Assembly: GCF_006716565.1 (NCBI RefSeq)
Contig: NZ_VFPG01000001.1
Span: forward strand, 5,580,001-5,644,000
DNA from: Nocardia bhagyanarayanae
GTDB taxonomy: Bacteria > Actinomycetota > Actinomycetes > Mycobacteriales > Mycobacteriaceae
DNA length: 64,000 bases
Direction: 5' to 3'
Within the stretch, counting starts at the first letter, position 1, and every line of letters begins with the position of its first letter. Shown piece by piece: positions 8,419 to 42,589 of this stretch. The notes under the pieces were generated by a model. It worked only from the letters and a program-made list of their open reading frames with translations. It was not told where the DNA came from and searched no databases. The position numbers and the translations under genes are program-made.

Positions 8419-9801
8419 CTACTTTCCGGCGAGCGGGTAGTTCCCGCGGATCACCCCGCTGGGGTCGACGGTGGCTTTGACCCGGCGCAGCCGGGCCAGC
8501 GTCGGCTCGTCGAACGCGGCGGTGACCTCCTCGTGGGGGCCGAGCATGCTGAGCACCGTCGGGCCGGCGTCCCAGGGCGCCATTGCCTCCCGCAGCTGCG
8601 TCATCGCCGCCGCGACCGGGCCGGCCAGCGTCGGCTCGGGCAGCATGGCCAGTGCGGACACCAGGTATTCGGCGTCGATCCGCCCGGCCGCACCGGCCAC
8701 CGGCCTGCGCAGCGCCGCCCCGAGATGCCGGATCTGGACCTGGGTCAGGGGTGTCCCGGTGCCCGGCCCGGCGAGCCGCAGGATCCGGTCGATCACCTCG
8801 TCGTCGACCACGCTGAGCCCCATCGCGGTGTGCGTCGCGGGCGAGGGTTCGGCCGGTTCCTCGCACACCGTGCCGATCTCGGAAGGCCGCAGCGGGCGCA
8901 CGGTCTCGCGTAGCACGGTGCCCGCCTGCCGAACCGGGGCCAGCAGCGTCGCCAGCTCGTCGCGGCCTCCGACGTGCACGGCGTCGACGAAGCAGAAGGA
9001 GCGGCCGCGGATCTCCTCGGGCAGGAACGGCAGCGGCGGGAAGTGCATCACCGCCGCCCACAGGCTCAGCGTGTCCGGGGCGAGGCTGGTCACTGCGGTG
9101 AACGCGCGCAGGACTTGCGCCGCCTGCTCGGCGGGGAACACCAGCCGCCCGCCGGTGATCCGCGGCGCGGGGAACAGGTCGAGCTCGACGGCGGTGACGA
9201 TCCCGAAGTCCCCGCCGCCGCCGCGCAGCGCCCACATCAGTTCGGGGTCCTTGTCGTCGCTGACCCAGCGGTGTCGGCCCGACGCGTCGACCAGCTCCAC
9301 GGCCCGCAGCGAACTCGCGCCGGTGCCGAACGGCCGCGACAGCCACGACAGCCCGCCGCCCAGGCAGGAACCGACGACCGTGACATCCGGGCTCGAGCCG
9401 ATCAGACCCGTCAGCCCGGTGCCGTCGAGCTCACTCTGCAACTGCGCCCAAGTGACGCCCGATCCGACCCGCGCGACCCGGGCGTCGGCGTCGATCCAGA
9501 CATCGTCGAAGGCCGCGGTCCGGATCAGGATCGTCTCGTCGAGGGCCCCGGTAGCGCCGTGGCCGCTGGGCTGGGCCGAGATCTGCAGCGAGTGGTCGCG
9601 CGCGAACCGGACGGCCGTGACCACGTCGGCGGCGACGCGGGCGGCCAGTACCGCGCGGGGACGCTGGGCCACGCTCAGGTTCCAGGCCCGCGCCGCGAGC
9701 TCCCAACCGTTGTCGCCGGGCAGGGTCAGGGCGCCGTCCAGGCCTGCCCGCAGGGCCAGCACGGGGTCACCGGCGGGGTGGGTCTCGGTTGTCGAAGTCA
9801 T
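8419..9801 (-). CDS. FAD-linked oxidoreductase, berberine-bridge-enzyme type
   Basis: A 460-residue flavoprotein starting at the ATG of MTSTTETHPAGD (9801). The PCMH FAD-binding domain covers roughly residues 35-210: AVRFARDHSLQISAQPSGHG holds the usual FAD-contacting QxxGHG region and VTVVGSCLGGGLSWLSRPFG the Gly-rich loop. The C-terminal BBE tail ends VDPSGVIRGNYPL, close to the family's DPxxxFxxNxxI. The second covalent-FAD Cys of plant enzymes is not obvious. These enzymes oxidise alcohols, sugars or secondary metabolites with O2. Divergent from a LuxR gene that probably controls it. Confidence 0.85.
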   Translation of the reverse strand: MTSTTETHPAGDPVLALRAGLDGALTLPGDNGWELAARAWNLSVAQRPRAVLAARVAADVVTAVRFARDHSLQISAQPSGHGATGALDETILIRTAAFDDVWIDADARVARVGSGVTWAQLQSELDGTGLTGLIGSSPDVTVVGSCLGGGLSWLSRPFGTGASSLRAVELVDASGRHRWVSDDKDPELMWALRGGGGDFGIVTAVELDLFPAPRITGGRLVFPAEQAAQVLRAFTAVTSLAPDTLSLWAAVMHFPPLPFLPEEIRGRSFCFVDAVHVGGRDELATLLAPVRQAGTVLRETVRPLRPSEIGTVCEEPAEPSPATHTAMGLSVVDDEVIDRILRLAGPGTGTPLTQVQIRHLGAALRRPVAGAAGRIDAEYLVSALAMLPEPTLAGPVAAAMTQLREAMAPWDAGPTVLSMLGPHEEVTAAFDEPTLARLRRVKATVDPSGVIRGNYPLAGK

Positions 9802-9836
9802 GCACCAACCGTCGCCGCCGGGCGTCTCGTGCGGTA

Positions 9837-9852
9837 TCCCACCGACGTGGGA
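9837..9852. promoter_or_regulatory. Palindrome in divergent promoter region (candidate operator)
   Basis: TCCCAC-CGAC-GTGGGA is a perfect inverted repeat with 6-bp arms, lying between the divergent flavoenzyme and LuxR-regulator genes. Confidence 0.5.
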
Positions 9853-9859
9853 AATCGAT

Positions 9860-9877
9860 CCCCCAGGGTTCTGGGGG
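9860..9877. promoter_or_regulatory. Second palindrome in the same divergent region
   Basis: CCCCCAG-GGTT-CTGGGGG has perfect 7-bp arms and lies 29 bp before the LuxR GTG. It could be an operator overlapping the promoter or a hairpin in the leader. Confidence 0.5.
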
Positions 9878-9905
9878 TTCGGTCTTGCCCGGCACACTTG
9901 CCACA

Positions 9906-11048
9906 GTGAGTACCTATCGAGCCGAGACCGCGCGGGCCGCGCTGGACGCGCTGTCTCGCGCCGGGCTGCCGTGGCAGGAGTTCGGCGAGAACGCGCTGGA
10001 CATCCTCGTGCGCGCCGTGCCCTTCGACTCCGCGTGCTTCGGCACCATCGATCCGAATACTTCGCTGGTGACCGGCTCGGTGAAGGTGGGGCTTGGCGAG
10101 CCCTGCGAGGCGGAGTTCGCCTTCCACGAGTACGTGCGGGACGAGGTCAGCCTCTTCCGCGACCTCGCGAGCCGGGACGTGGGCGTGAGCATCCTGCACG
10201 AGGAGACCGGTGGCGACCCGCGGCGCAGCTCGCGGTTCCGGGAGCTGTTCGAGCCGGTGTTCGGGCTCGGGCACGAACTGCGGGCGATGATGCGCTGTGG
10301 CGGCCAGACCTGGGGTGGCGTCGCCATCTACCGCGGACTCGGCAGCAGCGGCTTCAGCCCCGCGGAGGCGGATTTCCTCGACGGACTATCCGGCACACTG
10401 GCGGTTGGGATCCGCGCCGGCCTGATCGCCGACGCGGCCGGCGCCCCGGTGCAGCTGCACGACTCGGCGGAGGGACCGGTCGTGCTGACCTTCGACTCCG
10501 ACAACGAGGTGTGCCAGGCCACCCCGGCCGCCGAGCAGCGCATCGCCGAACTCGGCGGCGACCTCTGGCGCGAGCTGCCGCAACCGGTGCTGGCGATCGT
10601 TGCGGCGGCGCGGGCGCTGGAGTCGGGCCGGGCCCGCACCGTGCCACGGGTGCAGGTGCGGTCCCGGCTCGGCGAGTGGCTGACCGTGCACGCCTCCCCG
10701 TTGAACGGCCGCGGTGCGGTCGGCAGCCAGGTGGTGGTCACCATCGAACGCGCCGGCGCATCGGAGGTGGTGCCGTTGGTGGTGGCGGCGTTCGGGCTGA
10801 CCCCGCGCGAACGAGATGTGGTCGAGGCCGTGCTGCGCGGCGCGACCACCGCGGAAATCGCCAAGCAGCTGCATCTGTCGCCGTACACGGTGCAGGACCA
10901 CCTGAAGGTGGTCTTCGACAAGACCGGGGTCTCCAGCCGGCGCGAACTGATGTCGAAAGTGTTCTTCGACCATTACGCGCCACGCATCGGCAACACGCTC
11001 GGGCCATCGGGTTGGTTCGCAGATCGTGAGCCCGGAACACAGGTCTAG
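9906..11048 (+). CDS. LuxR-family transcriptional regulator with GAF-like sensor half
   Basis: A 380-residue protein from GTG 9906. Residues 1 to about 200 form a GAF-like sensing region (RAVPFDSACFGTIDPNTSLV). The C-terminal 65 residues are a classic LuxR/NarL HTH (FGLTPRERDVVEAVLRGATT, then IAKQLHLSPYTVQDHLKVVF). No receiver domain or Walker motif is present, so it is a single-component sensor. It is divergent from the flavoenzyme gene with two palindromes in the 104-bp gap, which suggests local control. Confidence 0.8.
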   Translation: MSTYRAETARAALDALSRAGLPWQEFGENALDILVRAVPFDSACFGTIDPNTSLVTGSVKVGLGEPCEAEFAFHEYVRDEVSLFRDLASRDVGVSILHEETGGDPRRSSRFRELFEPVFGLGHELRAMMRCGGQTWGGVAIYRGLGSSGFSPAEADFLDGLSGTLAVGIRAGLIADAAGAPVQLHDSAEGPVVLTFDSDNEVCQATPAAEQRIAELGGDLWRELPQPVLAIVAAARALESGRARTVPRVQVRSRLGEWLTVHASPLNGRGAVGSQVVVTIERAGASEVVPLVVAAFGLTPRERDVVEAVLRGATTAEIAKQLHLSPYTVQDHLKVVFDKTGVSSRRELMSKVFFDHYAPRIGNTLGPSGWFADREPGTQV

Positions 11049-28055: not shown

Positions 28056-28427
28056 ATGCACGAAATGGCGATAACTCGAAGTGTCGTCGACGCCGTGTGT
28101 GAGCATGCGGCGGGACGACGGGTGCACAGCGTCACCGTGGAGGTCGGCGCGCTGTGCGCGATCGTGCCCGAGGCGATGCGGTTCTGCTTCGAGCTGGCGA
28201 CCGAGGGGACCGTGGCGGACGGCGCCGAGCTGGTCGTGCAGACCGTGCCCGGCGCCGCGATCTGCCGATCCTGCGGCGCCGAGTTCGCCCTCGTCGACCT
28301 GATCCTGCTGTGTCCGTGCGGTAGCGCCGACGTCGAGATCAGGGCCGGGCGGGAGCTTCGAATCCGAACGATGGAGGTGAGCGAACCATGTGCGCGACCT
28401 GCGGATGCGGCGATTCGACAGCCATGA
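28056..28427 (+). CDS. hypA: Hydrogenase nickel-insertion protein HypA
   Basis: A 123-residue metallochaperone that hands Ni2+ to the hydrogenase large subunit together with HypB. The N-terminal MHEMAITRSVV carries the Ni-binding Met-His-Glu, which fixes the start at 28056. The zinc loop is AICRSCGAEF and LCPCGSADVEI; the second pair is C-P-C rather than C-x2-C, a small deviation. It overlaps hypB by 40 bases, so both are translated together. First gene of the hydrogenase run. Confidence 0.92.
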   Translation: MHEMAITRSVVDAVCEHAAGRRVHSVTVEVGALCAIVPEAMRFCFELATEGTVADGAELVVQTVPGAAICRSCGAEFALVDLILLCPCGSADVEIRAGRELRIRTMEVSEPCARPADAAIRQP

Positions 28428-29245
28428 TCACGGTCCTGCGCGACCACCCGCACGAGCACGACCCCGACCACCGGCACGAACCCGACCACCAGCACGCGCA
28501 CGGCCACCACCACGGCCACGAGCACGGCCACGAGCACGCGGATCACGTCCACGTGCCGATCACCGAGACGGTGACGTTGGAGCAGAAGGTACTGGCCAAG
28601 AACGATCGGCTGGCCCAGCACAACAGAGATCGGCTGCGCCGCGGCGGCATCGTGGCGCTCAACGTCACCAGCTCGCCGGGAGCCGGCAAGACGACACTGC
28701 TCGAGCGCACCATCCGCGATCTGAGCGATCGACCGATCGCGGTCGTCGAGGGCGATCAGGAGACACTGCTCGACGCCCAACGCATCAAGGCGACGGGGTG
28801 CCGGGTGGTGCAGGTCAATACCGGTGCAGGTTGCCACCTGGATGCCGAAATGATGCGGCATGCCCTCGACGAACTCGATCCGGCGCCGGGCACGCTGCTG
28901 TTCATCGAGAATGTCGGCAATTTGGTCTGCCCCGCGCTGTTCGATTTGGGCGAGCTCGCCAAGGTCGTGGTGTTCTCGGTGACCGAGGGCACCGACAAAC
29001 CGCTGAAATATCCGCATATGTTCGCCGCGGCCGGATTGGTGCTCGTCAACAAAATCGACCTCATTCCCTACGTCGATTTCGATCTCGACCGGTGCGCCGA
29101 ATACGCGCACTCGATCAATCCCGGTGTCCCGATCATGCCGGTCTCCGCGATCACCGGCGAGGGCTTGCCTAGCTGGTACACATGGCTTTCCGGGCAGATG
29201 TCGCCGCCGCCGACCTCCCTTGAGGAAGCTTCCAGCCCCGCCTAG
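28388..29245 (+). CDS. hypB: Hydrogenase nickel GTPase HypB
   Basis: A 285-residue SIMIBI-class GTPase that powers nickel insertion. N-terminal MCATCGCGDS is the high-affinity Ni site (CxxCGC). A His-rich stretch of about 40 residues follows (HEHDPDHRHEPDHQHAHGHH and onward) and can store nickel. The G domain has Walker A NVTSSPGAGKTTLLERTI, the FIENVGNLVCPALFDLGE metal/switch region and NKID specificity motif (VLVNKIDLIPYVDFD). It overlaps hypA upstream and ends 82 bases before hhyS, where a CRP-like site sits. Confidence 0.93.
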   Translation: MCATCGCGDSTAMITVLRDHPHEHDPDHRHEPDHQHAHGHHHGHEHGHEHADHVHVPITETVTLEQKVLAKNDRLAQHNRDRLRRGGIVALNVTSSPGAGKTTLLERTIRDLSDRPIAVVEGDQETLLDAQRIKATGCRVVQVNTGAGCHLDAEMMRHALDELDPAPGTLLFIENVGNLVCPALFDLGELAKVVVFSVTEGTDKPLKYPHMFAAAGLVLVNKIDLIPYVDFDLDRCAEYAHSINPGVPIMPVSAITGEGLPSWYTWLSGQMSPPPTSLEEASSPA

Positions 29246-29250
29246 ACTGG

Positions 29251-29266
29251 CGTGACGAGTGTCACA
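29251..29266. promoter_or_regulatory. CRP/GlxR-like binding site upstream of hhyS
   Basis: CGTGACGAGTGTCACA carries the GTGA-N6-TCAC core of CRP-family operators and fits TGTGA-N6-TCACA at all but the first base. Its centre is about 69 bases before the hhyS ATG, in the only sizeable gap of the first half of the cluster, so a second promoter with cAMP-receptor-type control is likely. Confidence 0.6.
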
Positions 29267-29327
29267 TTCCGGACGGTTTCTCCTTCAGAAGCCTGTGCGG
29301 CGCTCCAGCTTCGAAAGGTGGCATCTC

Positions 29328-30383
29328 ATGCCGACTAAGGAAGCAGTCAAAGCCGAAGAAACGCTGATCCACGTTCTCTGGATCAACGCCGGCCTCAGTT
29401 GTGACGGTGACTCGGTGGCGCTGACTGCCGCCTCCCAGCCCAGCATCGAGGAGATCGCCCTGGGTTCGCTCCCCGGTCTCCCCAAGGTTGCCGTCCATTG
29501 GCCGCTGATCGATTTCGAATGCGGTCCCAACGGTGGGGCCGACGATTTCCTGGAATGGTTCTTCCGCGCCGACCGCGGCGAACTCGAACCGTTCGTCCTC
29601 GTGGTCGAGGGATCGATCCCCAACGAGCAGCTCAAAACCGAGGGCTACTGGTGCGGGTTCGGCAACAACCCCGAGACCGGCCAGCCGATGACGACCAGCG
29701 AATGGCTGGATCGCCTCGCCCCGAAAGCCACCGCCATCGTGGCCGCCGGTACCTGCGCCACCTACGGCGGCATCCACGCCATGGCGGGAAACCCGACCGG
29801 GGCGATGGGCGTGCCGGACTACCTCGGCTGGGATTGGCGGAGCAAGGCGGACATCCCGATCGTCTGCGTGCCGGGGTGCCCGATCCACCCGGACAACCTC
29901 TCCGAGACCCTGACCTACCTGCTCTACATGGCCACCGGCCAGGCGCCGATGATCCCGCTCGACGACGCGCTGCGGCCCAAGTGGCTGTTCGCCGCGACCG
30001 TCCACGAGGGCTGCGATCGCGCCGGGTACTACGAGCAGGGTGACTTCGCCACCGAGTACGGATCGCCGAAGTGCATCGTGAAGCTCGGCTGCTGGGGTCC
30101 GGTCGTGAAATGCAATGTGCCCAAGCGCGGTTGGATCAACGGCGTCGGCGGCTGCCCCAACGTCGGCGGTATCTGCATCGGCTGCACCATGCCCGGTTTC
30201 CCGGACAAGTTCATGCCGTTCATGGACGAACCGCCCGGCGGCAAGTTCTCCTCGGCGGCCTCTGGACTGTACGGGTCGGTGATCCGCAGCCTGCGCTCGG
30301 TCACCGGCCGCACCGTTGACAAGGAGCCGCGCTGGCGGCACCGCGGCGAGAAGCTGGAAACCGGCGCGACGCGCACCTGGTAG
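29328..30383 (+). CDS. hhyS: [NiFe] hydrogenase small subunit, group 1h
   Basis: A 351-residue Fe-S electron-transfer subunit. ATG 29328 follows GAAAGGTGG. The proximal cluster site reads NAGLSCDGDSV: the usual C-x2-C is C-x2-D (Cys25, Asp28), the 3Cys-1Asp signature of the O2-insensitive group 1h (formerly group 5) enzymes. Further ligands lie in VAAGTCATYGG, VPGCPIHPDN and CPNVGGICIGCTMPGFPD. There is no Tat signal and no C-terminal membrane anchor, unlike group 1a-1d enzymes, so the enzyme faces the cytoplasm. Its role is oxidation of trace H2. Confidence 0.95.
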   Translation: MPTKEAVKAEETLIHVLWINAGLSCDGDSVALTAASQPSIEEIALGSLPGLPKVAVHWPLIDFECGPNGGADDFLEWFFRADRGELEPFVLVVEGSIPNEQLKTEGYWCGFGNNPETGQPMTTSEWLDRLAPKATAIVAAGTCATYGGIHAMAGNPTGAMGVPDYLGWDWRSKADIPIVCVPGCPIHPDNLSETLTYLLYMATGQAPMIPLDDALRPKWLFAATVHEGCDRAGYYEQGDFATEYGSPKCIVKLGCWGPVVKCNVPKRGWINGVGGCPNVGGICIGCTMPGFPDKFMPFMDEPPGGKFSSAASGLYGSVIRSLRSVTGRTVDKEPRWRHRGEKLETGATRTW

Positions 30384-30393
30384 GAGGACTTCG

Positions 30394-32190
30394 ATGACTC
30401 AGATCATTCCGGAGCCGTCGCACCGCAAGGTCGACCCGAACGCCCTCGTGGAGATGGCGTGGGATCCGATCACCCGGATCGTCGGCAGCTTGGGTATCTA
30501 CACCAAGATCGATTTCGAGAATCAGCAGGTCGTGGAGTGCCACAGCACGTCGTCGATCTTCCGCGGCTACTCCATCTTCATGAAGGGCAAGGATCCGCGC
30601 GACGCGCACTTCATCACCAGCCGGATCTGCGGCATCTGCGGCGACAACCACGCCACCTGTTCGTGCTACTGCCAGAACATGGCCTACGGCGTGCAGCCAC
30701 CGCACCTGGGCGAGTGGCTGGTCAACCTCGGCGAAGCGGCCGAGTACATGTTCGACCACAACATCTTCCAGGAGAACCTGGTCGGCGTGGACTTCTGCGA
30801 GAAGATGGTCGCCGAGACCAATCCCGGTGTGCTGGCTCGCGCCGAGCGCACCGAAGCGCCGCACGCGGACGCGCACAACTTCCGGACCATCGCCGACATC
30901 ATGCGCGCGCTGAACCCGTTCAGCGGCGAGTTCTATCGCGAGGCGCTGCAGGTCAGCCGGTTCACGCGCGAGATGTTCTGCCTGATGGAGGGCAGGCACG
31001 TGCATCCGTCGACGCTGTATCCGGGCGGTGTCGGCACCGTCGCCACCATCCAGCTGATGACCGACTACATGACGCGTCTGATGCGGTACGTGGAGTTCAT
31101 GAAGAAGGCCGTGCCGATGCACGACGACCTGTTCGACTTCTTCTACGAGGCGCTGCCCGGCTACGACAAGGTCGGTCTGCGCCGCACGCTGCTCGGCTGC
31201 TGGGGTTCGTTCCAGGATCCCGAGTTCTGCAACTTCTCGTACAAGGACATGGAGGACTGGGGTCGCAAGATGTTCGTGACCCCCGGCGTGGTGGTGGACG
31301 GGAAACTGCTCACGACCAGCCTGGTCGACATCAACCTCGGCATCCGGATCCTGCTGGGCAGTTCGTATTACGACGACTGGACCGATCAGGAGATGTTCGT
31401 GAAGACGGATCCGCTGGGCAATCCGGTGGACCGGCGCCACCCGTGGAACCAGCACACCAACCCCAAGCCGCAGAAGCGCGACCTGGAGGACAAGTACAGC
31501 TGGGTGATGTCGCCGCGCTGGTTCGACGGCACGGACCACCTGGCGCTGGACACCGGCGGCGGACCGCTGGCCCGGCTGTGGACCACGGCGCTGGCCGGGC
31601 TCGTCGACATCGGCTACGTGAAGTCGACGGGGCACAGCGTGCAGATCAACTTCCCGAAGACCGCCCTGAAGGGGCCGGTCGAGCTCGAATGGAAGATCCC
31701 GTCCGTCGGGAGCAACACCATCGAACGCGACCGCGCTCGCACCTACTTCCAGGCGTACGCGGCGGCCTGCGCCCTGCACTTCGCCGAGAAGGCCATCGAG
31801 GAGATCCGGGCCGGGCACACCAAGACCTGGGAGCCGTTCGAGGTGCCCGAGGAGAGCATCGGGTGCGGCTTCACCGAGGCCGTGCGCGGCGTCCTGTCCC
31901 ACCACATGGTGATCAGGGACGGCAAGATCGCCAACTACCACCCGTATCCGCCGACGCCGTGGAACGCCAGCCCGCGCGACAGCTTCGGCACACCGGGCCC
32001 CTACGAGGACGCGGTGCAGGGCCAGGCGATCTTCGAGGAGAACAACCGGGAGAACTTCAAGGGCATCGACATCATGCGCACCGTGCGCAGCTTCGATCCG
32101 TGTCTGCCGTGTGGCGTGCACATGTATCTCGGCAAGGGAAAGACGCTGGAGAAAGTGCACTCCCCCGCCCAGACGCTGACCCCGGAGTAG
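30394..32190 (+). CDS. hhyL: [NiFe] hydrogenase large subunit, group 1h
   Basis: A 598-residue catalytic subunit with the Ni-Fe(CN)2CO centre. Ligand motif L1 is SRICGICGDNHATC (Cys79, Cys82, His86) and L2 is DPCLPCGVHM (Cys570, Cys573, His576). A 22-residue tail follows His576 and should be wholly or partly removed by the endopeptidase encoded downstream. The long insert with HPWNQHTNPKPQKRDLEDKY is typical of the 1h group. AGGAGG sits 7 bases before ATG 30394 and 10 bases separate it from hhyS. Confidence 0.95.
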   Translation: MTQIIPEPSHRKVDPNALVEMAWDPITRIVGSLGIYTKIDFENQQVVECHSTSSIFRGYSIFMKGKDPRDAHFITSRICGICGDNHATCSCYCQNMAYGVQPPHLGEWLVNLGEAAEYMFDHNIFQENLVGVDFCEKMVAETNPGVLARAERTEAPHADAHNFRTIADIMRALNPFSGEFYREALQVSRFTREMFCLMEGRHVHPSTLYPGGVGTVATIQLMTDYMTRLMRYVEFMKKAVPMHDDLFDFFYEALPGYDKVGLRRTLLGCWGSFQDPEFCNFSYKDMEDWGRKMFVTPGVVVDGKLLTTSLVDINLGIRILLGSSYYDDWTDQEMFVKTDPLGNPVDRRHPWNQHTNPKPQKRDLEDKYSWVMSPRWFDGTDHLALDTGGGPLARLWTTALAGLVDIGYVKSTGHSVQINFPKTALKGPVELEWKIPSVGSNTIERDRARTYFQAYAAACALHFAEKAIEEIRAGHTKTWEPFEVPEESIGCGFTEAVRGVLSHHMVIRDGKIANYHPYPPTPWNASPRDSFGTPGPYEDAVQGQAIFEENNRENFKGIDIMRTVRSFDPCLPCGVHMYLGKGKTLEKVHSPAQTLTPE

Positions 32191-32193
32191 CGG

Positions 32194-33123
32194 ATGGCGC
32201 GCCCGCAGCGAGAGATGGGAAACGGCCACGACGAGGCCGTAGTCGACGACGATCGCTGGCGCGGCGCGGGCGAACGCATCGAAACGCTGCTCGAATCGAG
32301 TTCGGTGGGCGGCGCCGCGGCCAGGGAGCGGGCCGAGGAATTGGTCCGCGAGGTCGCCGATCTCTACGGCGCGGGCCTCGAGCGCATCGTCGGCATGCTC
32401 GACGACGCGGCACTCGAACGTCTCGCCGGTGACGACCTGATCGCGAGTCTGCTGCTCGTGCACGGGCTGCACCCGCACGACGTGGCCACTCGGGTGCGCT
32501 CCGCGCTCGACAGCGTGCGGCCCTACCTCGGTTCGCACGGCGGCGACGTCACCCTGATCGCGGTCGAGGACGGGATCGTGCGGCTCGAGCTGGCGGGCAG
32601 CTGCCGCACCTGCCCGTCGTCGTCGGTGACGTTGGAACTGGCCGTCGAGGAGGCGGTGCGCGCCGCGGCGCCCGAGATCGAGGCGATCGAGGTGGTCGCG
32701 GCCGAACCGGAGGCGGGCTCGGGGGTGATCGCGGCGGAGTCGTTGTTCGCCCGCGTGCACGCCGCGGGTCCGCATTCGGGCAGCTGGATCGCCGTCCCCG
32801 AACTGGCGGCGCTCGGGGTCGGTGAAGTCGGCGGATTCTCGGTGGCCGGTGTTCCGGTGCTGGCCTGCCGGGTCGGCGACGAAGTGTTCGTCTACCGCGA
32901 CCGGTGTGGCGCCTGCGGCCGTTCGATGGCGGGCGCGGTCCTGCACCGGCGCCTCGGCTTCCCCGTGGGCGACGCCGTACTGCGCTGCCCGTCGTGCGGC
33001 GCGCATTTCGACGCGGTGCACGCCGGTGCGCGGGTCGACGGCGACGGGCACCTCGAACCGCTTCCGGTGCTGGTGCGCTCGGGTGAGCTGTCGGTGGCGG
33101 TTCCCGCGGAGGTGCCCGGATGA
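32194..33123 (+). CDS. NifU-like plus Rieske-like redox protein of the hydrogenase cluster
   Basis: A 309-residue two-domain protein directly after hhyL (3-base gap). Residues about 96-168 form a NifU C-terminal domain (PYLGSHGGDVTLIAVEDG; AGSCRTCPSS with Cys137/Cys140). Residues about 195-305 look like a Rieske fold, but the iron ligands appear to be two Cys pairs, DRCGACG (238/241) and RCPSCGAHFD (265/268), instead of CxH and CxxH. It is expected to pass electrons from HhyS towards quinone, or to help load clusters. The same position is held by this protein in other actinobacterial 1h operons. Its stop overlaps the next start (ATGA). Confidence 0.85.
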   Translation: MARPQREMGNGHDEAVVDDDRWRGAGERIETLLESSSVGGAAARERAEELVREVADLYGAGLERIVGMLDDAALERLAGDDLIASLLLVHGLHPHDVATRVRSALDSVRPYLGSHGGDVTLIAVEDGIVRLELAGSCRTCPSSSVTLELAVEEAVRAAAPEIEAIEVVAAEPEAGSGVIAAESLFARVHAAGPHSGSWIAVPELAALGVGEVGGFSVAGVPVLACRVGDEVFVYRDRCGACGRSMAGAVLHRRLGFPVGDAVLRCPSCGAHFDAVHAGARVDGDGHLEPLPVLVRSGELSVAVPAEVPG

Positions 33124-33755
33124 GTTCGGCGTTCGGCGTGCTGCGCCGCCTGACCGCGCCGCGACCGGCGCCCGCCCCGGCGGGCGAACGCTGCGAGATG
33201 TGCGCGGACCCGATCGGCGAATCCCACCAGCACGTGGTGAATATCGAAGGCAGACAGCTGATGTGCGTCTGCCGCGGCTGCTATCTGCTGTTCACCGACC
33301 AGACGGCCGCGTTGCGGTACCGCGCGGTGCCGGACCGCTATCTGTCGTTCCCGGACGTGGTCATCGATCAGGACGAGTGGGACGCGCTCGAGATCCCGGT
33401 CGGTCTGGCCTTCTTCTTCCGCAATTCGGCGCTCGGGCGCACCGTCGCGTTCTATCCGAGCCCGGCGGGCGCGACCGAGTCCGAACTGCCCTTGCCGCGC
33501 TGGCACGCGATCCTGGACCGGCATCCGGAGATCGATGTCGCGGCCGACGATGTCGAGGCGTTGCTGATCCGCATGCCGCACCGCGGCCGACCCGGAGCCT
33601 GCCTGCTGTTGCCCATCGACGCCTGCTACGAGTTCGTCGGCCGGATGCGGTTGCTGTGGCGCGGCTTCGACGGCGGCCAGGAGGCGCACCAGTACATCGA
33701 GGACTTCTTCGCCACGATGTCGGCGCGGGCGCGAACCGAGGGGGGCGCGCGATGA
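33120..33755 (+). CDS. DUF5947-like protein of group 1h hydrogenase clusters
   Basis: A 211-residue protein of unknown function, known to me only next to actinobacterial 1h hydrogenases. Near the N-terminus a possible zinc site is seen: ERCEMCADPIGESHQH and MCVCRGCYLLF (two Cys before, three after). The rest is a mixed alpha/beta domain (RYLSFPDVVIDQDEWDALEI; FFFRNSALGRTVAFYPSPAG). It overlaps both neighbours by four bases (ATGA), so strict co-translation with the redox protein and the next gene is expected. Function is open: maturation, Fe-S delivery or electron coupling are all possible. Confidence 0.7.
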   Translation: MSSAFGVLRRLTAPRPAPAPAGERCEMCADPIGESHQHVVNIEGRQLMCVCRGCYLLFTDQTAALRYRAVPDRYLSFPDVVIDQDEWDALEIPVGLAFFFRNSALGRTVAFYPSPAGATESELPLPRWHAILDRHPEIDVAADDVEALLIRMPHRGRPGACLLLPIDACYEFVGRMRLLWRGFDGGQEAHQYIEDFFATMSARARTEGGAR

Positions 33756-34399
33756 GCCCGGCCTACTCGATCACCTTCGGCGTCCTGGACATCCGGCCCG
33801 AGCCGTACGCGGCGACGCCGACGCTGTCGGCGCGCGTCGGGATCGCGGCGCTCCACGAGGAGCCGGTGCACGCCATCGCGCTGCGCGCGCAGGTCAGGAT
33901 CGAACCGCGCCGCCGCTCCTACACCGACGAGGAGGCGGCGGGGCTCACGGATCTCTTCGGCGCACGGGAACGGTGGCACGACACACAGCGATCGTTCCTC
34001 TGGATGCATTGCGCGACAACGATTCCCGGGTTCACCGGCGGCGCGGAGGTGGACCTGCCGTTGCCGTGTACCTACGACTTCGAGGTCGCTGGATCGAAGT
34101 ACCTGCACGCGCTGCGCGAGGGCACGGTGCCGTTGCTCTTCCTGTTCAGCGGCACCGTATTCATCAGGGGCGCCGGCGGTTTCGCGGTGCAACAGGTGCC
34201 GTGGGATCGCGAGGACAAGTTCGACATGCCGGTCTCGGTGTGGCACGACCTGATGGCCGCGCACTTCCCCAACTCCGGCTGGATCCGGCTGTCTCGCGAG
34301 ACGCTCGACGCCCTGTCGGCTTACAAGCACGAGCGCGGGCTGCTCGGCTACGACGACGCCGTGGTCGAGCTGCTCGCCTCGGCGCAGGAGCCGACGTGA
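33752..34399 (+). CDS. DUF6084-like protein of group 1h hydrogenase clusters
   Basis: A 215-residue, mainly beta protein without signal or membrane segment. Seen stretches: SITFGVLDIRPEPYAATPTL, ALRAQVRIEPRRRSY, TTIPGFTGGAEVDLPLPCTY and FLFSGTVFIRGAGGFAVQQV. The ATGA overlap with the gene before and GTGA overlap with the gene after indicate a coupled block. Families of this kind occur only with these hydrogenases as far as I know; no activity is described. The domain number is from memory. Confidence 0.7.
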   Translation: MSPAYSITFGVLDIRPEPYAATPTLSARVGIAALHEEPVHAIALRAQVRIEPRRRSYTDEEAAGLTDLFGARERWHDTQRSFLWMHCATTIPGFTGGAEVDLPLPCTYDFEVAGSKYLHALREGTVPLLFLFSGTVFIRGAGGFAVQQVPWDREDKFDMPVSVWHDLMAAHFPNSGWIRLSRETLDALSAYKHERGLLGYDDAVVELLASAQEPT

Positions 34400-35748
34400 G
34401 CACCCCTCGCTCCGTCCGGTCCGCGCGCGCCAGGGCGCGGGCGGTCGCCGACGCGGTGCTGTACGAGGGCTATCTGCTGTACCCGTATCGGGCGAACGCG
34501 CGAAAGAACCAGTGCCGCTGGCAATTCGGCGTCCTCGGTCCCGAGGGCGCCGCGCAGGCGGGTCTCGGTGAGGACTCGATGCTCCGCGCGCAATTCCCGG
34601 TCACCGCGGACGGTGACCCCACGCTCGTCCTGACCGTCCGGTTCCTGCAACTACAGCGGCGCACCGTCGAAGACCGCCACGGAACTCCGGTCGCCGAGCT
34701 CGATCTCGGCGGCCGCAGGGTGATCAGCTGGGACGAGGCGGTCGAGCACGAGATCGAGCGCGGGCCGATGCCGCTGGCGGGCACCGTGTTCGATGTGTCG
34801 GTCCCGGGCGGCGTCGATGTCGAGGACGTGCACGACGCCGCGGGCGCTGTCGCGGGACGGCTGGTGCGCACCCGGCGACCGCTCGACTGCCGGGTCGAGG
34901 TATCGGTCGACGAGCTGGCGGGTTGCCACCGCGTCACGATCGCGGTGCGCAATGTCGCCGCTGCGCTGACGAACTCGGACGACGCGCTCGCGCATTCGCT
35001 GCTCGGCACGCATGTGATCGCCGAGCTCGACGGCGGCGAGTTCGTGTCGCTGCTGGAGCCGCCGCCCGAAGCGGCCGCGGCGGTCGAGCAGTGCGGCCAG
35101 CACCGCTGCTTCCCGGTTCTCGCCGGGCCGCCCGGCGACCGCGGTCTGCTGCTGATCTCGCCGATCATCCTCTACGACCACCCGGAGATCGCCGAACAAA
35201 GCGAGGGCCCGTTGTTCGACGCGACCGAGATCGACGAGATCCTGACCCTGCGCGTGATGGGCATGACCGACGAGGAGAAGGAGCAGGCCCGTGCCACCGA
35301 CCCGCTCGCGGCGCGAATCGTCGACCGCTGCGACGCCACCACGGCCGACCAGCTGAACCGGCTGCACGGCGTGCTGCGCGAACCGGCGAACCCGCCGCGC
35401 GTGCTGCCCGAGGTTCCGGACGGCGTCGACTGGTGGGATCCATTGGCCGACAACGCGGTTCGTCCCGATTCCGACGCGGTCGTCGTCGCGGGCGTGCTGG
35501 TCAGCCGAGGCAGCCGGGTGCGTCTGCGCCCGGCGCGGCGCGCGGATGCCCACGATCTGTTCTACGACGGCGAGCCCGCGCGGGTGGTGTCGGTGCACGA
35601 GGACGTCGACGGCGACGTGCACGTCGGAGTCGTCGTCGAGAACGACCCGGCCGCCGACCTGCACGAGTGGTACGGCCGCTACCTCTACTTCGCGCCCGAC
35701 GAGATCGAGCCGATCGACGGGCCGACCGAGGGAGACCGAGACGAATGA
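34396..35748 (+). CDS. Uncharacterised 450-residue hydrogenase-cluster protein
   Basis: Starts at GTG 34396, inside the stop of the previous gene. The N-terminus AVLYEGYLLYPYRANARKNQ is strongly patterned and looks conserved. The middle is beta-rich (LDLGGRRVISWDEAVEHEIE); a helical stretch near 290 (LTLRVMGMTDEEKEQARATD) precedes an SH3/KOW-like C-terminal part (DLFYDGEPARVVSVHEDVDG, HVGVVVENDPAADLHEW). No catalytic motif, cofactor site, signal or membrane segment is recognised. It is the largest unexplained gene of the cluster and is probably a scaffold or assembly factor for the enzyme complex. Confidence 0.7.
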   Translation: MSTPRSVRSARARARAVADAVLYEGYLLYPYRANARKNQCRWQFGVLGPEGAAQAGLGEDSMLRAQFPVTADGDPTLVLTVRFLQLQRRTVEDRHGTPVAELDLGGRRVISWDEAVEHEIERGPMPLAGTVFDVSVPGGVDVEDVHDAAGAVAGRLVRTRRPLDCRVEVSVDELAGCHRVTIAVRNVAAALTNSDDALAHSLLGTHVIAELDGGEFVSLLEPPPEAAAAVEQCGQHRCFPVLAGPPGDRGLLLISPIILYDHPEIAEQSEGPLFDATEIDEILTLRVMGMTDEEKEQARATDPLAARIVDRCDATTADQLNRLHGVLREPANPPRVLPEVPDGVDWWDPLADNAVRPDSDAVVVAGVLVSRGSRVRLRPARRADAHDLFYDGEPARVVSVHEDVDGDVHVGVVVENDPAADLHEWYGRYLYFAPDEIEPIDGPTEGDRDE

Positions 35749-35762
35749 AAGGAGAGTCGGCC

Positions 35763-35882
35763 ATGGACAGGGTGGGAGCAGTGGCGATCGCCATCGCCGC
35801 GGTGATCGGAGGTGTTCTCACGGTCGTCGGGGTGCGGTCGATACCGGACATCCGGCGCTATTTCCGGATCCGCAACATGTAG
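35763..35882 (+). CDS. 39-residue single-span membrane peptide (DUF6893-like)
   Basis: ATG 35763 is selected because GGAGAG stands 6 bases before it; an ATG at 35745 overlapping the preceding stop would add six residues. The peptide has one hydrophobic helix (VGAVAIAIAAVIGGVLTVVG) and a basic cytoplasmic tail (SIPDIRRYFRIRNM). In a cluster for a soluble hydrogenase, a tiny membrane anchor could tether the complex to the quinone pool. The pattern VxSIPDIxRYxRxRxM is, as far as I recall, typical of DUF6893 proteins. Confidence 0.75.
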   Translation: MDRVGAVAIAIAAVIGGVLTVVGVRSIPDIRRYFRIRNM

Positions 35883-35900: not shown

Positions 35901-36224
35901 ATGGGTGACAGGAAAGAAGAGCCGCAGTCGGCACGCGGGGCGCCTGGCTCGCGCGACACCGGTTCGGACACGGTCGCCGGCGGTCCGACGGACCGTGAAC
36001 CCGGCGACATCGGGCACGAGGAGCTGACCTCGGCCGAGGGTGAGCGCCCCGAGCGCGGCACCGACTTCACCACGACGCCGGGCACCGACGCCGAACCGGC
36101 CGTCCCGCCCTACGACGAGCGCAAGGACACCGCGAATCGGCCGGGCGAGACAGCGGCGGGTGAGGTGGAGGGCGCCGATGTCGGCGGCGCGACGACGCCG
36201 ACGCCGACCGACGAACAGGAGTGA
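35901..36224 (+). CDS. Acidic, probably disordered 107-residue protein
   Basis: Composition is dominated by Glu, Asp, Gly, Thr and Pro with no hydrophobic core (MGDRKEEPQSARGAPGSRDT; TPGTDAEPAVPPYDERKDTA). It is therefore likely to be intrinsically disordered. GAAGGTGAGGA precedes ATG 35901. It sits between the 39-residue membrane peptide and the maturation protease. It could be a flexible linker or chaperone-like partner, or a rapidly evolving filler; no homology is recognised. Confidence 0.55.
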   Translation: MGDRKEEPQSARGAPGSRDTGSDTVAGGPTDREPGDIGHEELTSAEGERPERGTDFTTTPGTDAEPAVPPYDERKDTANRPGETAAGEVEGADVGGATTPTPTDEQE

Positions 36225-36237
36225 GGCGACGACGAAG

Positions 36238-36699
36238 GTGCTGGTCGCCGGGATCGGGAACATCTTCCTCGGCGACGACGGATTCGGCCCGGCGGTGGTG
36301 CGGCGGCTGCCCGCCCCCACCGCGGCGGACGTGCGCGTCGCCGACTACGGCATCCGGGGCATGCACCTCGCCTACGACCTGCTGAACGACTGGGACGCGC
36401 TGGTGCTCGTCGACGCCCTGCCCGATCGGGGCGCGCCGGGCCGGGTCGAGGTGTTCCGTGCGGAGCAGGCGGAGGAAGCCGGCACCCGGCTCGACGCGCA
36501 CGCGATGGATCCCGAGGCCGTGTTCTCGATGGTGCGGACGCTGGGCGGCACCGTGCCGCCGACGGTGATCGTCGGGTGCCAGGTCGTCTCGGTCGCCGAG
36601 GGGATCGGCCTCACCGAGCCCGTCGAGGCGGCCGTCGCACCCGCCGCCGCCGCGGTCGGGTCGGTGCTGGCGGACCTGCTCAGCCGACAGGAGGTGTGA
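36238..36699 (+). CDS. Hydrogenase maturation endopeptidase (HyaD/HupD family)
   Basis: A 153-residue nickel-dependent protease that clips the C-terminal tail of the large subunit after nickel insertion. Seen: VAGIGNIFLGDDGFGPAVVR (GxGN...DDG with metal-binding acid), VLVDALPDRG and the His of DAHAMDPEAVF. GTG 36238 gives the canonical beginning; AGGAGTGAGG lies about 11 bases upstream, and no in-frame ATG exists before the core motif. The stop is 3 bases before hypC. Confidence 0.88.
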   Translation: MLVAGIGNIFLGDDGFGPAVVRRLPAPTAADVRVADYGIRGMHLAYDLLNDWDALVLVDALPDRGAPGRVEVFRAEQAEEAGTRLDAHAMDPEAVFSMVRTLGGTVPPTVIVGCQVVSVAEGIGLTEPVEAAVAPAAAAVGSVLADLLSRQEV

Positions 36700-36702
36700 A
36701 CG

Positions 36703-36945
36703 ATGTGCCTCGGGATTCCGGGCCGGGTCGTGCGGATGGCCGAGGGCTACCACGATCAGGTGGCCTTGGTGGACGTCTCGGGTGAGACGCGCAAAGTGAA
36801 CATCGGCATGCTCGACGAAGGCCCGGTGCGCCCCGGCGAGTGGGTCATCATCCACATGGGTTTCGCGGTCGAGCGAACCGACGAGGCGGGCGCGGCCGAG
36901 GCGCTCGCGGGGCTGCGGCTGCTGGGACGCGGGGAGGAACCGTGA
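36703..36945 (+). CDS. hypC: Hydrogenase assembly chaperone HypC (copy 1)
   Basis: An 80-residue HypC/HupF chaperone: MCLGIPGRVVRMAEG with the essential Cys2 that holds the Fe(CN)2CO unit, and EWVIIHMGFAVERTDEAGAA. It shuttles the iron centre from HypD to the large subunit. GGAGGTG precedes it and its TGA overlaps the GTG of hypF. A second, longer HypC follows hypF. Confidence 0.92.
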   Translation: MCLGIPGRVVRMAEGYHDQVALVDVSGETRKVNIGMLDEGPVRPGEWVIIHMGFAVERTDEAGAAEALAGLRLLGRGEEP

Positions 36946-41791: not shown

Positions 41792-42589
41792 ATGGACGGC
41801 GATTCGGCTTCCGCCGGGGCGGCGCGAGGAGGTGGCTCGGTCACCGGGCTCGACGTGGCAGGCCTCGACGGAACGGAGATGTTCGCCCGCTACGCCCACG
41901 CGCCCAACGCGCTCGGCCACTGCGGTCCCGCCGCGAGCGGGTCGATGGTCGACCTGCCCGCGGCGGAGGTCAGGGCGATGGCGCGCCGATTCTCCGGCGC
42001 GTGGCCCTACCTGCGGGTCATGTCGCGGCTGACCGGCATCGACGACCCGCTGGACCGCCGCCTCGTCGAATCGTATTGGCTGGGAGGGGGAATCGGCGCG
42101 CGGCTGGACCCGGCGGAGTTCATGGCGGAACTCCTGGCGGTCATCGGTCCGGTCGCCGGTCACTACTGGGCGCATCTGACCACGGAACTGGCGCCCGAGG
42201 CCGCCGCCAACCACTGCTTCCACGTCTTCGGCGTCTACCCGTGGACCAGACTGCTCGGACGGGGAAACGACGAGCACCCGCTGCGCGTCCTCGACAACTG
42301 CCGCATCACCTGGGGAACGGTCCTGGCTCGCGCGGACGATCGGGTGACGGTGTCGACTCGCCGCCTGGCGTGGGACGGGAACCGACTCGCGTTGTCCCCG
42401 CCCGAGACTCGGCAGGTAGCGGTGTGGGTCGACGGCTACTCCCCCGCGCCGGACGTGCGCGAGCACGATCTCGTCGCGCTGCACTGGGATCGGTTGTGCG
42501 GGCTGCTGGAGCCGGAGCAGGTCCGCGACCTCGCCGACAGCACGGACCGCCAGTTGCGCGTCACCAACGACAGGCTGTCGCGGACGTGA
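41792..42589 (+). CDS. DUF6390-like protein of hydrogenase clusters
   Basis: A 265-residue soluble protein one base after hypE. It is rich in conserved-looking aromatic and His positions: ARYAHAPNALGHCGPAA, GPVAGHYWAHLTTELAPEAA and NHCFHVFGVYPWTRLLG. These His/Cys clusters would suit metal handling, for example nickel or iron, but no fold is recognised. An internal ATG (41879, MFARYAHAP) is an alternative start. It is coupled to the nickel permease by a GTGA overlap, which also points towards nickel supply or maturation. Uncharacterised. Confidence 0.7.
   Translation: MDGDSASAGAARGGGSVTGLDVAGLDGTEMFARYAHAPNALGHCGPAASGSMVDLPAAEVRAMARRFSGAWPYLRVMSRLTGIDDPLDRRLVESYWLGGGIGARLDPAEFMAELLAVIGPVAGHYWAHLTTELAPEAAANHCFHVFGVYPWTRLLGRGNDEHPLRVLDNCRITWGTVLARADDRVTVSTRRLAWDGNRLALSPPETRQVAVWVDGYSPAPDVREHDLVALHWDRLCGLLEPEQVRDLADSTDRQLRVTNDRLSRT

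Follow-up and report, generated by a model that had tools for sequence, protein, structure and literature searches.

A dedicated accessory gene module beside the group 1h hydrogenase of Nocardia bhagyanarayanae and a microprotein candidate for its membrane anchor

Group 1h hydrogenases have been proposed as principal agents by which soil removes H2 from the atmosphere (PMC7174314), and the basis of their membrane attachment, which accompanies a higher apparent affinity, was stated to be unknown (PMC7174314, PMC13332983). A locus of this kind lies in a 64,000-nucleotide stretch of Nocardia bhagyanarayanae (contig NZ_VFPG01000001.1, positions 5,580,001 to 5,644,000; hereafter the window), where the two hydrogenase subunit genes are followed by a tight run of accessory genes, which raises the question of what these genes do for the enzyme and whether one of them could hold it at the membrane. 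We found that the accessory genes are a dedicated group 1h hydrogenase module, their co-occurrence with the large-subunit gene hhyL being near-strict, and that a membrane microprotein of the family DUF6893 is, as far as sequence can tell, the best candidate for the missing anchor.

The window enzyme is a group 1h locus, judging by the similarity of its large subunit HhyL (30394..32190, on the forward strand like all genes of the block) to the copies of Cupriavidus necator (78%) and of a Mycobacterium intracellulare plasmid (87%). The C-terminus of HhyL was read as DPCxxCxxH plus an extension, and the small subunit HhyS (29259..30383; Pfam Oxidored_q6 and NiFe_hyd_SSU_C) showed 68% to the C. 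necator small subunit. The next gene (32194..33123) had been called a redox protein in an earlier note on this DNA; the gene and its overlap are real, and the name is corrected to HhyE, an already studied protein with a NifU domain (75.8 bits in Pfam) and two CxxC motifs (PMC6883350). It is followed by a DUF5947 protein (33120..33755), a DUF6084 protein (33752..34399), a 450-residue protein (34396..35748) and, across a 14-base gap holding a ribosome-binding-like AAAGGAG (35749..35762), a 39-residue single-span microprotein of the family DUF6893 (35763..35882) ending in PDIRRYFRIRNM-COOH. The curated Pfam cut-offs were clearly passed by DUF5947 (PF19372; 242.7 versus 25 bits), DUF6084 (PF19562; 317.6 versus 25 bits) and DUF6893 (PF21833; 49.3 versus 24.6 bits). 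The 450-residue protein matched no Pfam family at E 1 or better; at E 0.001 it had at least 7997 homologues (7997 of 8000 candidates scored), and it was 93% identical to a Nocardia amikacinitolerans protein. Because of these Pfam scores and this homologue count, the open reading frames (ORFs) of the block are taken as real genes.

The dedication of these genes to the enzyme was determined in 246 actinobacterial genomes, the same set being searched once for each of HhyL, the 450-residue protein, DUF5947, DUF6084 and DUF6893; hhyL was counted as present when an HhyL match of at least 65% identity and near full length was obtained, G028 being accepted from two contig-end pieces. Twenty-four of the 246 genomes carried hhyL. 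DUF5947 was detected in 23 of these 24 versus one of the 222 others, DUF6084 in 22 versus two, and the 450-residue protein in 23 versus two (Fisher p below 1e-26 for each, a descriptive value only, as the species are related). The contigs of two hhyL-less exceptions (G189 and G216) stop just upstream of the block, and in G042, the hhyL genome in which the 450-residue protein was not found, the contig stops inside DUF6084. Four genomes with hhyL pieces only, at a contig end, run into hypE or as scraps (G184, G107, G227 and G130), were counted among the 222, and accessory genes were found in none of them. Other large subunits in this set reached at most 47% identity among matches at E 1e-50 or better, and the ten genomes whose best match at that level was 36-47% contained none of these three accessory genes and no DUF6893; one of the ten holds an hhyL scrap.

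A similar picture was obtained with 179 genomes of the Acidobacteriota, the phylum of Granulicella mallensis (L098), nine of which carried hhyL at 82% identity or more. The 450-residue protein was present in all nine and in one of the other 170 (G309, whose contig starts 0.8 kb upstream of the gene), and the microprotein in eight of the nine and none of the 170, so that no genome of the 179 carried it beyond these eight. The earlier note had named correlation with hhyL as a check and wide occurrence of the families without hydrogenase as a reason to abandon its proposal; the correlation was near-strict in both sets, and such wide occurrence was not seen, one, two and two of the 222 hhyL-less Actinobacteria, one of the 170 hhyL-less Acidobacteriota and one Burkholderia exception described below departing from the correlation.

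Some clusters appeared to be decayed (L045 in G184, L042 in G107, L145 in G150): either hhyL leads directly into hypE, or hhyS, hhyL or the 450-residue gene survive only as scraps. The microprotein and the protease HycI were retained in G150. The hydrogenase locus L174 (G182) has a shortened 450-residue gene, next to which no HycI and no microprotein could be found.

The arrangement of the block was further compared across the best 80 of 558 confirmed loci from a scan of genome contigs, which by their titles belong to the Pseudomonadota, Chloroflexota, Verrucomicrobiota, Acidobacteriota, Planctomycetota, Eremiobacterota, Myxococcota and Actinomycetota; 79 of them are hydrogenase loci, the Burkholderia locus L111 being excluded. 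The commonest order was HhyS-HhyL-HhyE-DUF5947-DUF6084-450-HycI. Several Verrucomicrobiota have a DUF5947-DUF6084-450-HycI unit upstream of HhyS, with HhyE elsewhere, and no DUF6084 was found in L137, L139 and L143. The 450-residue gene adjoins HycI in 74 of the 76 loci with both on one strand, and in 13 of the 80 it is split into two genes, one for each part. Distance matrices of the accessory proteins correlated with that of HhyL over 63 loci (four of 67 were dropped for short HhyL), the values being 0.83 for DUF6084, 0.79 for DUF5947, 0.77 for the 450-residue protein, 0.64 for HycI and 0.59 for HhyE, and none of 2000 permutations came near them. These correlations would fit joint inheritance; by themselves they are no proof of contact. 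In the Streptomyces-type loci L040, L041, L061 and L143 the order is 450-HhyS-HhyL-HhyE-DUF5947, and no DUF6084 was seen there.

The earlier note had taken the four-base overlaps in the block as a sign of fixed stoichiometry. The overlaps themselves were confirmed base for base (ATGA at 33120-33123 between HhyE and DUF5947, ATGA at 33752-33755 between DUF5947 and DUF6084, GTGA at 34396-34399 between DUF6084 and the 450-residue gene), and so was the 39-residue membrane peptide 14 bases later. In a 50-kb control stretch of the M. intracellulare plasmid with an incomplete gene list, however, 7 of 37 same-strand neighbour pairs showed the same four-base overlap and 13 of 37 lay 30 bases or less apart. 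Four-base overlaps are thus ordinary operon packing and alone no sign of fixed stoichiometry. Less ordinary than the overlaps is the recurrence of similar junctions across phyla: among the 80 loci, the junction from DUF6084 to the 450-residue gene could be read as an overlap of four bases in 61 of 72 adjacent pairs, that from the 450-residue gene to HycI in 57 of 74, and that from DUF5947 to DUF6084 as eight bases in 35 and four in 15 of 72, counts in which the start codon closest to a four-base overlap was picked and which are inflated towards it. The annotated C. necator genes from HhyE through HycI overlap by 4, 8, 4 and 4 bases.

Recurring adjacency and joint inheritance, together with the co-localisation of HhyL, HhyS and HhyE reported on native gels (PMC6883350), could also be explained if all five accessory proteins were stoichiometric subunits of one large, stable hydrogenase complex. 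We regard such a complex as quite improbable, since the overlaps are so common, the gene run extends into a maturation protease, and some genomes lack DUF6084 or the microprotein. In work by Schafer from 2013 the C. necator enzyme is said to have been purified as two subunits. It is also described as encoded by two subunit genes (PMC4377017), and hhyE was reported missing in Methylacidiphilum (PMC6688271).

We then turned to the microprotein. An iterated profile seeded with the 39-residue peptide detected it in 66 of the 80 loci (L113 and L138 weakly), at most 1.3 kb after the 450-residue gene except in L122 and L139. Four more (L115, L108, L099 and L124) were added by pattern or by eye, giving 70 of the 79 hydrogenase loci; the L108 copy was also obtained at E 4.4e-11 in a whole-genome search, the form in L099 and L124 is longer with two motif copies, and in L101 the microprotein lies on other contigs of the genome. 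A pattern for the C-terminus gave 70 matches in six frames of 1.38 Mb, of which 67 fell no more than 1.4 kb downstream of the 450-residue gene and the remaining three also within hhy clusters; this pattern was derived from the profile hits and is hence not independent of them. The microprotein also lies outside the gene lists, stated to be incomplete, of C. necator (L059:11987-12085), M. parvus (L060:11717-11812) and M. intracellulare (L062).

The microprotein has one membrane span and is 31-40 residues long in 90 of 97 rows, with a C-terminal consensus near PDIxRYLKIxxM-COOH. The terminal methionine was found in 86 of 87 distinct sequences, a set from which profile hits above E 1e-5 (including L113 and L138) had been dropped and to which L115 and L108 had been added. 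Among these 86, tyrosine at -7 was kept in 86, arginine at -8 in 84, and aspartate or glutamate at -11 in 82; the set was gathered by profile, so the conservation is partly a condition of retrieval. The tyrosine is encoded by TAT in 35 and TAC in 35 cases and the arginine by all six of its codons, and this codon variety points to probable selection on the protein sequence. Forty-six of 50 cross-phylum microproteins matched DUF6893 at E 0.01 or better. In alignment A6 (49 of 71 locus sequences plus the window protein), a hydrophobic span was present in 47 of 50, and the tail was more basic than the N-terminal side in 45 of 50. By the positive-inside rule the more basic side of a membrane span faces the cytoplasm, and the tail would therefore be cytoplasmic.

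Diverged membrane peptides were also observed: in L143 and the three other Streptomyces-type loci one follows DUF5947 and carries RIWRM and then about ten more residues. In some Acidobacteriota a second, longer membrane protein with an RYxKxRxM-like tail follows HycI (L172 near 10093, L169 near 4580, L170 near 3772, and L165/L166, which are G342:C27 and G267:C14).

The position of the microprotein gene leaves room for a different explanation, in which the accessory proteins are purely maturation factors for HhyL folding, cluster insertion or protease access, and the microprotein has HycI or the Hyp machinery as its target and does not anchor the enzyme. The close adjacency of the 450-residue gene and HycI would fit it, as would their joint move to the hyp genes in L122 and L135, where the pair stands opposite HhySLE-DUF5947-DUF6084; 51 of the 70 microprotein profile hits lie clearly after HycI, and DUF6893 stands among hyp genes in G205 and G195. 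A conserved membrane span is, however, hard to reconcile with a cytoplasmic maturation step, and in two Acidobacteriota a canonical microprotein has no hyp genes nearby. We consider a purely maturational role unlikely.

For the other accessory proteins, the models and residue patterns suggest a division of labour. The seven Cys/His of DUF5947 (C25, C28, H36, H38, C49, C51 and C54) were kept without exception in an alignment of 47 sequences, made up of the window protein and 46 of the 72 locus sequences. Such invariance, and the presence of DUF5947 in nearly every actinobacterial hhyL genome, would be expected if DUF5947 rather than HhyE were the main electron acceptor and the other proteins served it. 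The same pattern would also fit a structural zinc site, and it is HhyE that was reported necessary for H2 consumption in Mycobacterium smegmatis (PMC6883350), so that we find DUF5947 as main acceptor rather doubtful.

The AlphaFold2 model of DUF6084 (mean predicted local distance difference test, pLDDT, 92.7) is a predicted immunoglobulin-like beta sandwich with C-terminal helices, its fold matching immunoglobulin-like domains. The model of the 450-residue protein matched the N-terminal 'structural chassis' of DrmA, followed by a predicted SH3-like barrel; alignment A3 held 56 of the 80 locus sequences plus five proteins. No Pfam enzyme family was found for these two proteins. As modelled, the two folds do not look like those of metabolic enzymes, which the earlier note had named as the other outcome that would undo its proposal, and their appearance suggests scaffolds.

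Taken together, we propose a helper set dedicated to hhy. HhyE and the Cys/His-rich DUF5947 would bind metal and either pass electrons on from HhyS or assist in building its clusters; DUF6084 and the 450-residue protein would have no catalytic role and act as scaffolds, working with HycI and holding the subunits while these are assembled and processed; and the DUF6893 microprotein would tether the enzyme, inserting a hydrophobic helix into the membrane and gripping the enzyme near the quinone pool with its basic C-terminal tail, a docking tag on the cytoplasmic side. The association of these genes with the enzyme is observed, and for the roles we put the chances at about even. The earlier note had seen in the block an assembly or membrane-docking module for the 1h enzyme. 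Its dedication holds by co-occurrence and gene order, and membrane docking is plausible in view of a microprotein that recurs from phylum to phylum and keeps an exact C-terminal motif; a fixed stoichiometry is not supported by the overlaps.

An anchor of this kind would answer to what is reported of the enzyme of strain SolV, which has no transmembrane helix or signal peptide and is yet membrane-associated through a partner called unknown, its apparent Km being 140 nM when membrane-associated versus 300 nM when isolated (PMC7174314). A paper of 2026 likewise states that no anchoring subunit has been identified for the group 1h enzyme (PMC13332983). Of the products encoded at the hhy loci, it is the microprotein that spans the membrane and recurs. 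A wider proposal, which we advance tentatively and rate somewhat short of even, is that DUF6893 proteins are the group 1h anchors across consumers of atmospheric H2, the last twelve residues, with their near-invariant Arg-Tyr and terminal Met, being the docking tag that would set the enzyme at the quinone pool and so lead to its high apparent affinity; the longer acidobacterial protein would carry the same tag, and the 450-residue protein would be a DrmA-type chassis reused as an assembly scaffold. A peptide whose C-terminus is fixed and whose gene neighbours those of the enzyme in several phyla could reduce the anchoring question to one gene, and the wider module offers a defined parts list for producing the enzyme in a different host.

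Several observations weigh against the proposed helper set and tether. Seven of the 79 hydrogenase loci lack a recognised version of the microprotein even when the whole genome was searched. Among the 24 actinobacterial hhyL genomes 17 were found to carry DUF6893, and so were five genomes outside this group; in two of these five the accessory block sits on cut contigs, and a third holds a decayed hhy cluster. The canonical microprotein of the Acidobacteriota G267 and G342 is encoded on a separate contig, with no hhy genes nearby. G042 lacks DUF5947 between HhyE and DUF6084, a true absence at that site. DUF6084 is absent from the hhyL genomes G128 and G171, and was not found in the genomes of M. 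fragae, a Streptomyces and a Polyangiaceae metagenome-assembled genome. Burkholderia sp. 4M9327F10 (L111) encodes a 450-type protein (9171-10466) not far from citrate synthase, with a SIS-domain regulator on one side and an acyltransferase on the other; neither a hydrogenase large subunit nor DUF6084 was found in that genome. The C. necator enzyme was described as cytoplasmic (PMC4377017, PMC7174314), though the microprotein is encoded there. Methylacidiphilum fumariolicum SolV was reported without hhyE (PMC6688271) and without homologues of the hypothetical proteins of the Pyrinomonas 1h operon, while its enzyme is still membrane-associated and its operon encodes two other hypothetical membrane proteins (PMC7174314).

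The block is embedded in further hydrogenase genes. A HypB-like ORF (28388-29245) lies upstream of HhyS. Between the microprotein and HycI, a 107-residue hydrophilic, acidic, low-complexity ORF (35901..36224, forward strand) gave no Pfam match, and a similar stretch was found in one of the 80 loci, so that its membership of the module is doubtful. The HycI-type maturation protease (36238..36699, forward strand; Pfam HycI 51.8 bits, TIGR00072 122.4 bits) and the chaperone HypC (36703..36945, forward strand; Pfam HupF_HypC 77.7 bits) follow, and farther downstream HypF (by similarity to the annotated C. necator gene), HypD, HypE and a DUF6390 protein. The latter (41792-42589, after HypE) scored 355.6 bits, and similar stretches occur in 8 of the 80 hhy loci.

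Compared with known systems, the closest is the C. necator pHG1 cluster (PHG064-070), in which the order HhyS-HhyL-HhyE-DUF5947-DUF6084-450-HycI is the same as in mycobacteria and in the window. The window differs in having the microprotein and the 107-residue ORF between the 450-residue gene and HycI, whereas in C. necator the microprotein follows HycI. PHG066-069 of Cupriavidus, whose positions correspond to HhyE through the 450-residue protein, had previously been entered as unknown genes of the cluster (PMC4377017), and HhyE has been studied (PMC6883350); the block as a whole is therefore not the undescribed system that the earlier note had taken it for. In Pfam, DUF6893 is a family without assigned function, and its link to group 1h and the exact C-terminal motif come from this analysis. 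A literature search on DUF5947, DUF6084 and DUF6893 gave one paper, on aurodox biosynthesis, mentioning DUF6084 once, and none naming DUF6893. Among the papers listed by further searches, in a collection that lacks most subscription journals and preprints, no title or abstract opening described a structure of the group 1h enzyme or an anchor or microprotein for it. The cross-phylum microprotein and the DrmA-like domain appear new within the searchable literature.

The 450-residue protein may resemble DrmA of the defence system DISARM in its predicted N-terminal chassis fold; the Nocardia protein itself fell below the DrmA profile. It does not share the tandem RecA domains of the DISARM helicase, no Pfam helicase being found and no defence context seen. 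Its predicted SH3-like barrel can be set beside those of PetP, photosystem I chain E and the nitrile hydratase beta subunit. For membrane attachment, group 1d hydrogenases have cytochrome b anchors (PMC6883350), a role whose sharing by the microprotein is only proposed; no cytochrome b was found among the window ORFs scanned, a scan that covered part of them. In the group 2a hydrogenase Huc, the accessory protein HucM ties the enzyme to the membrane, a role like that proposed here for the microprotein (PMC10017518). By their descriptions the two are set apart, HucM being a 188-residue scaffold with a coiled-coil tube and the microprotein a peptide of mostly 31-40 residues with one span.

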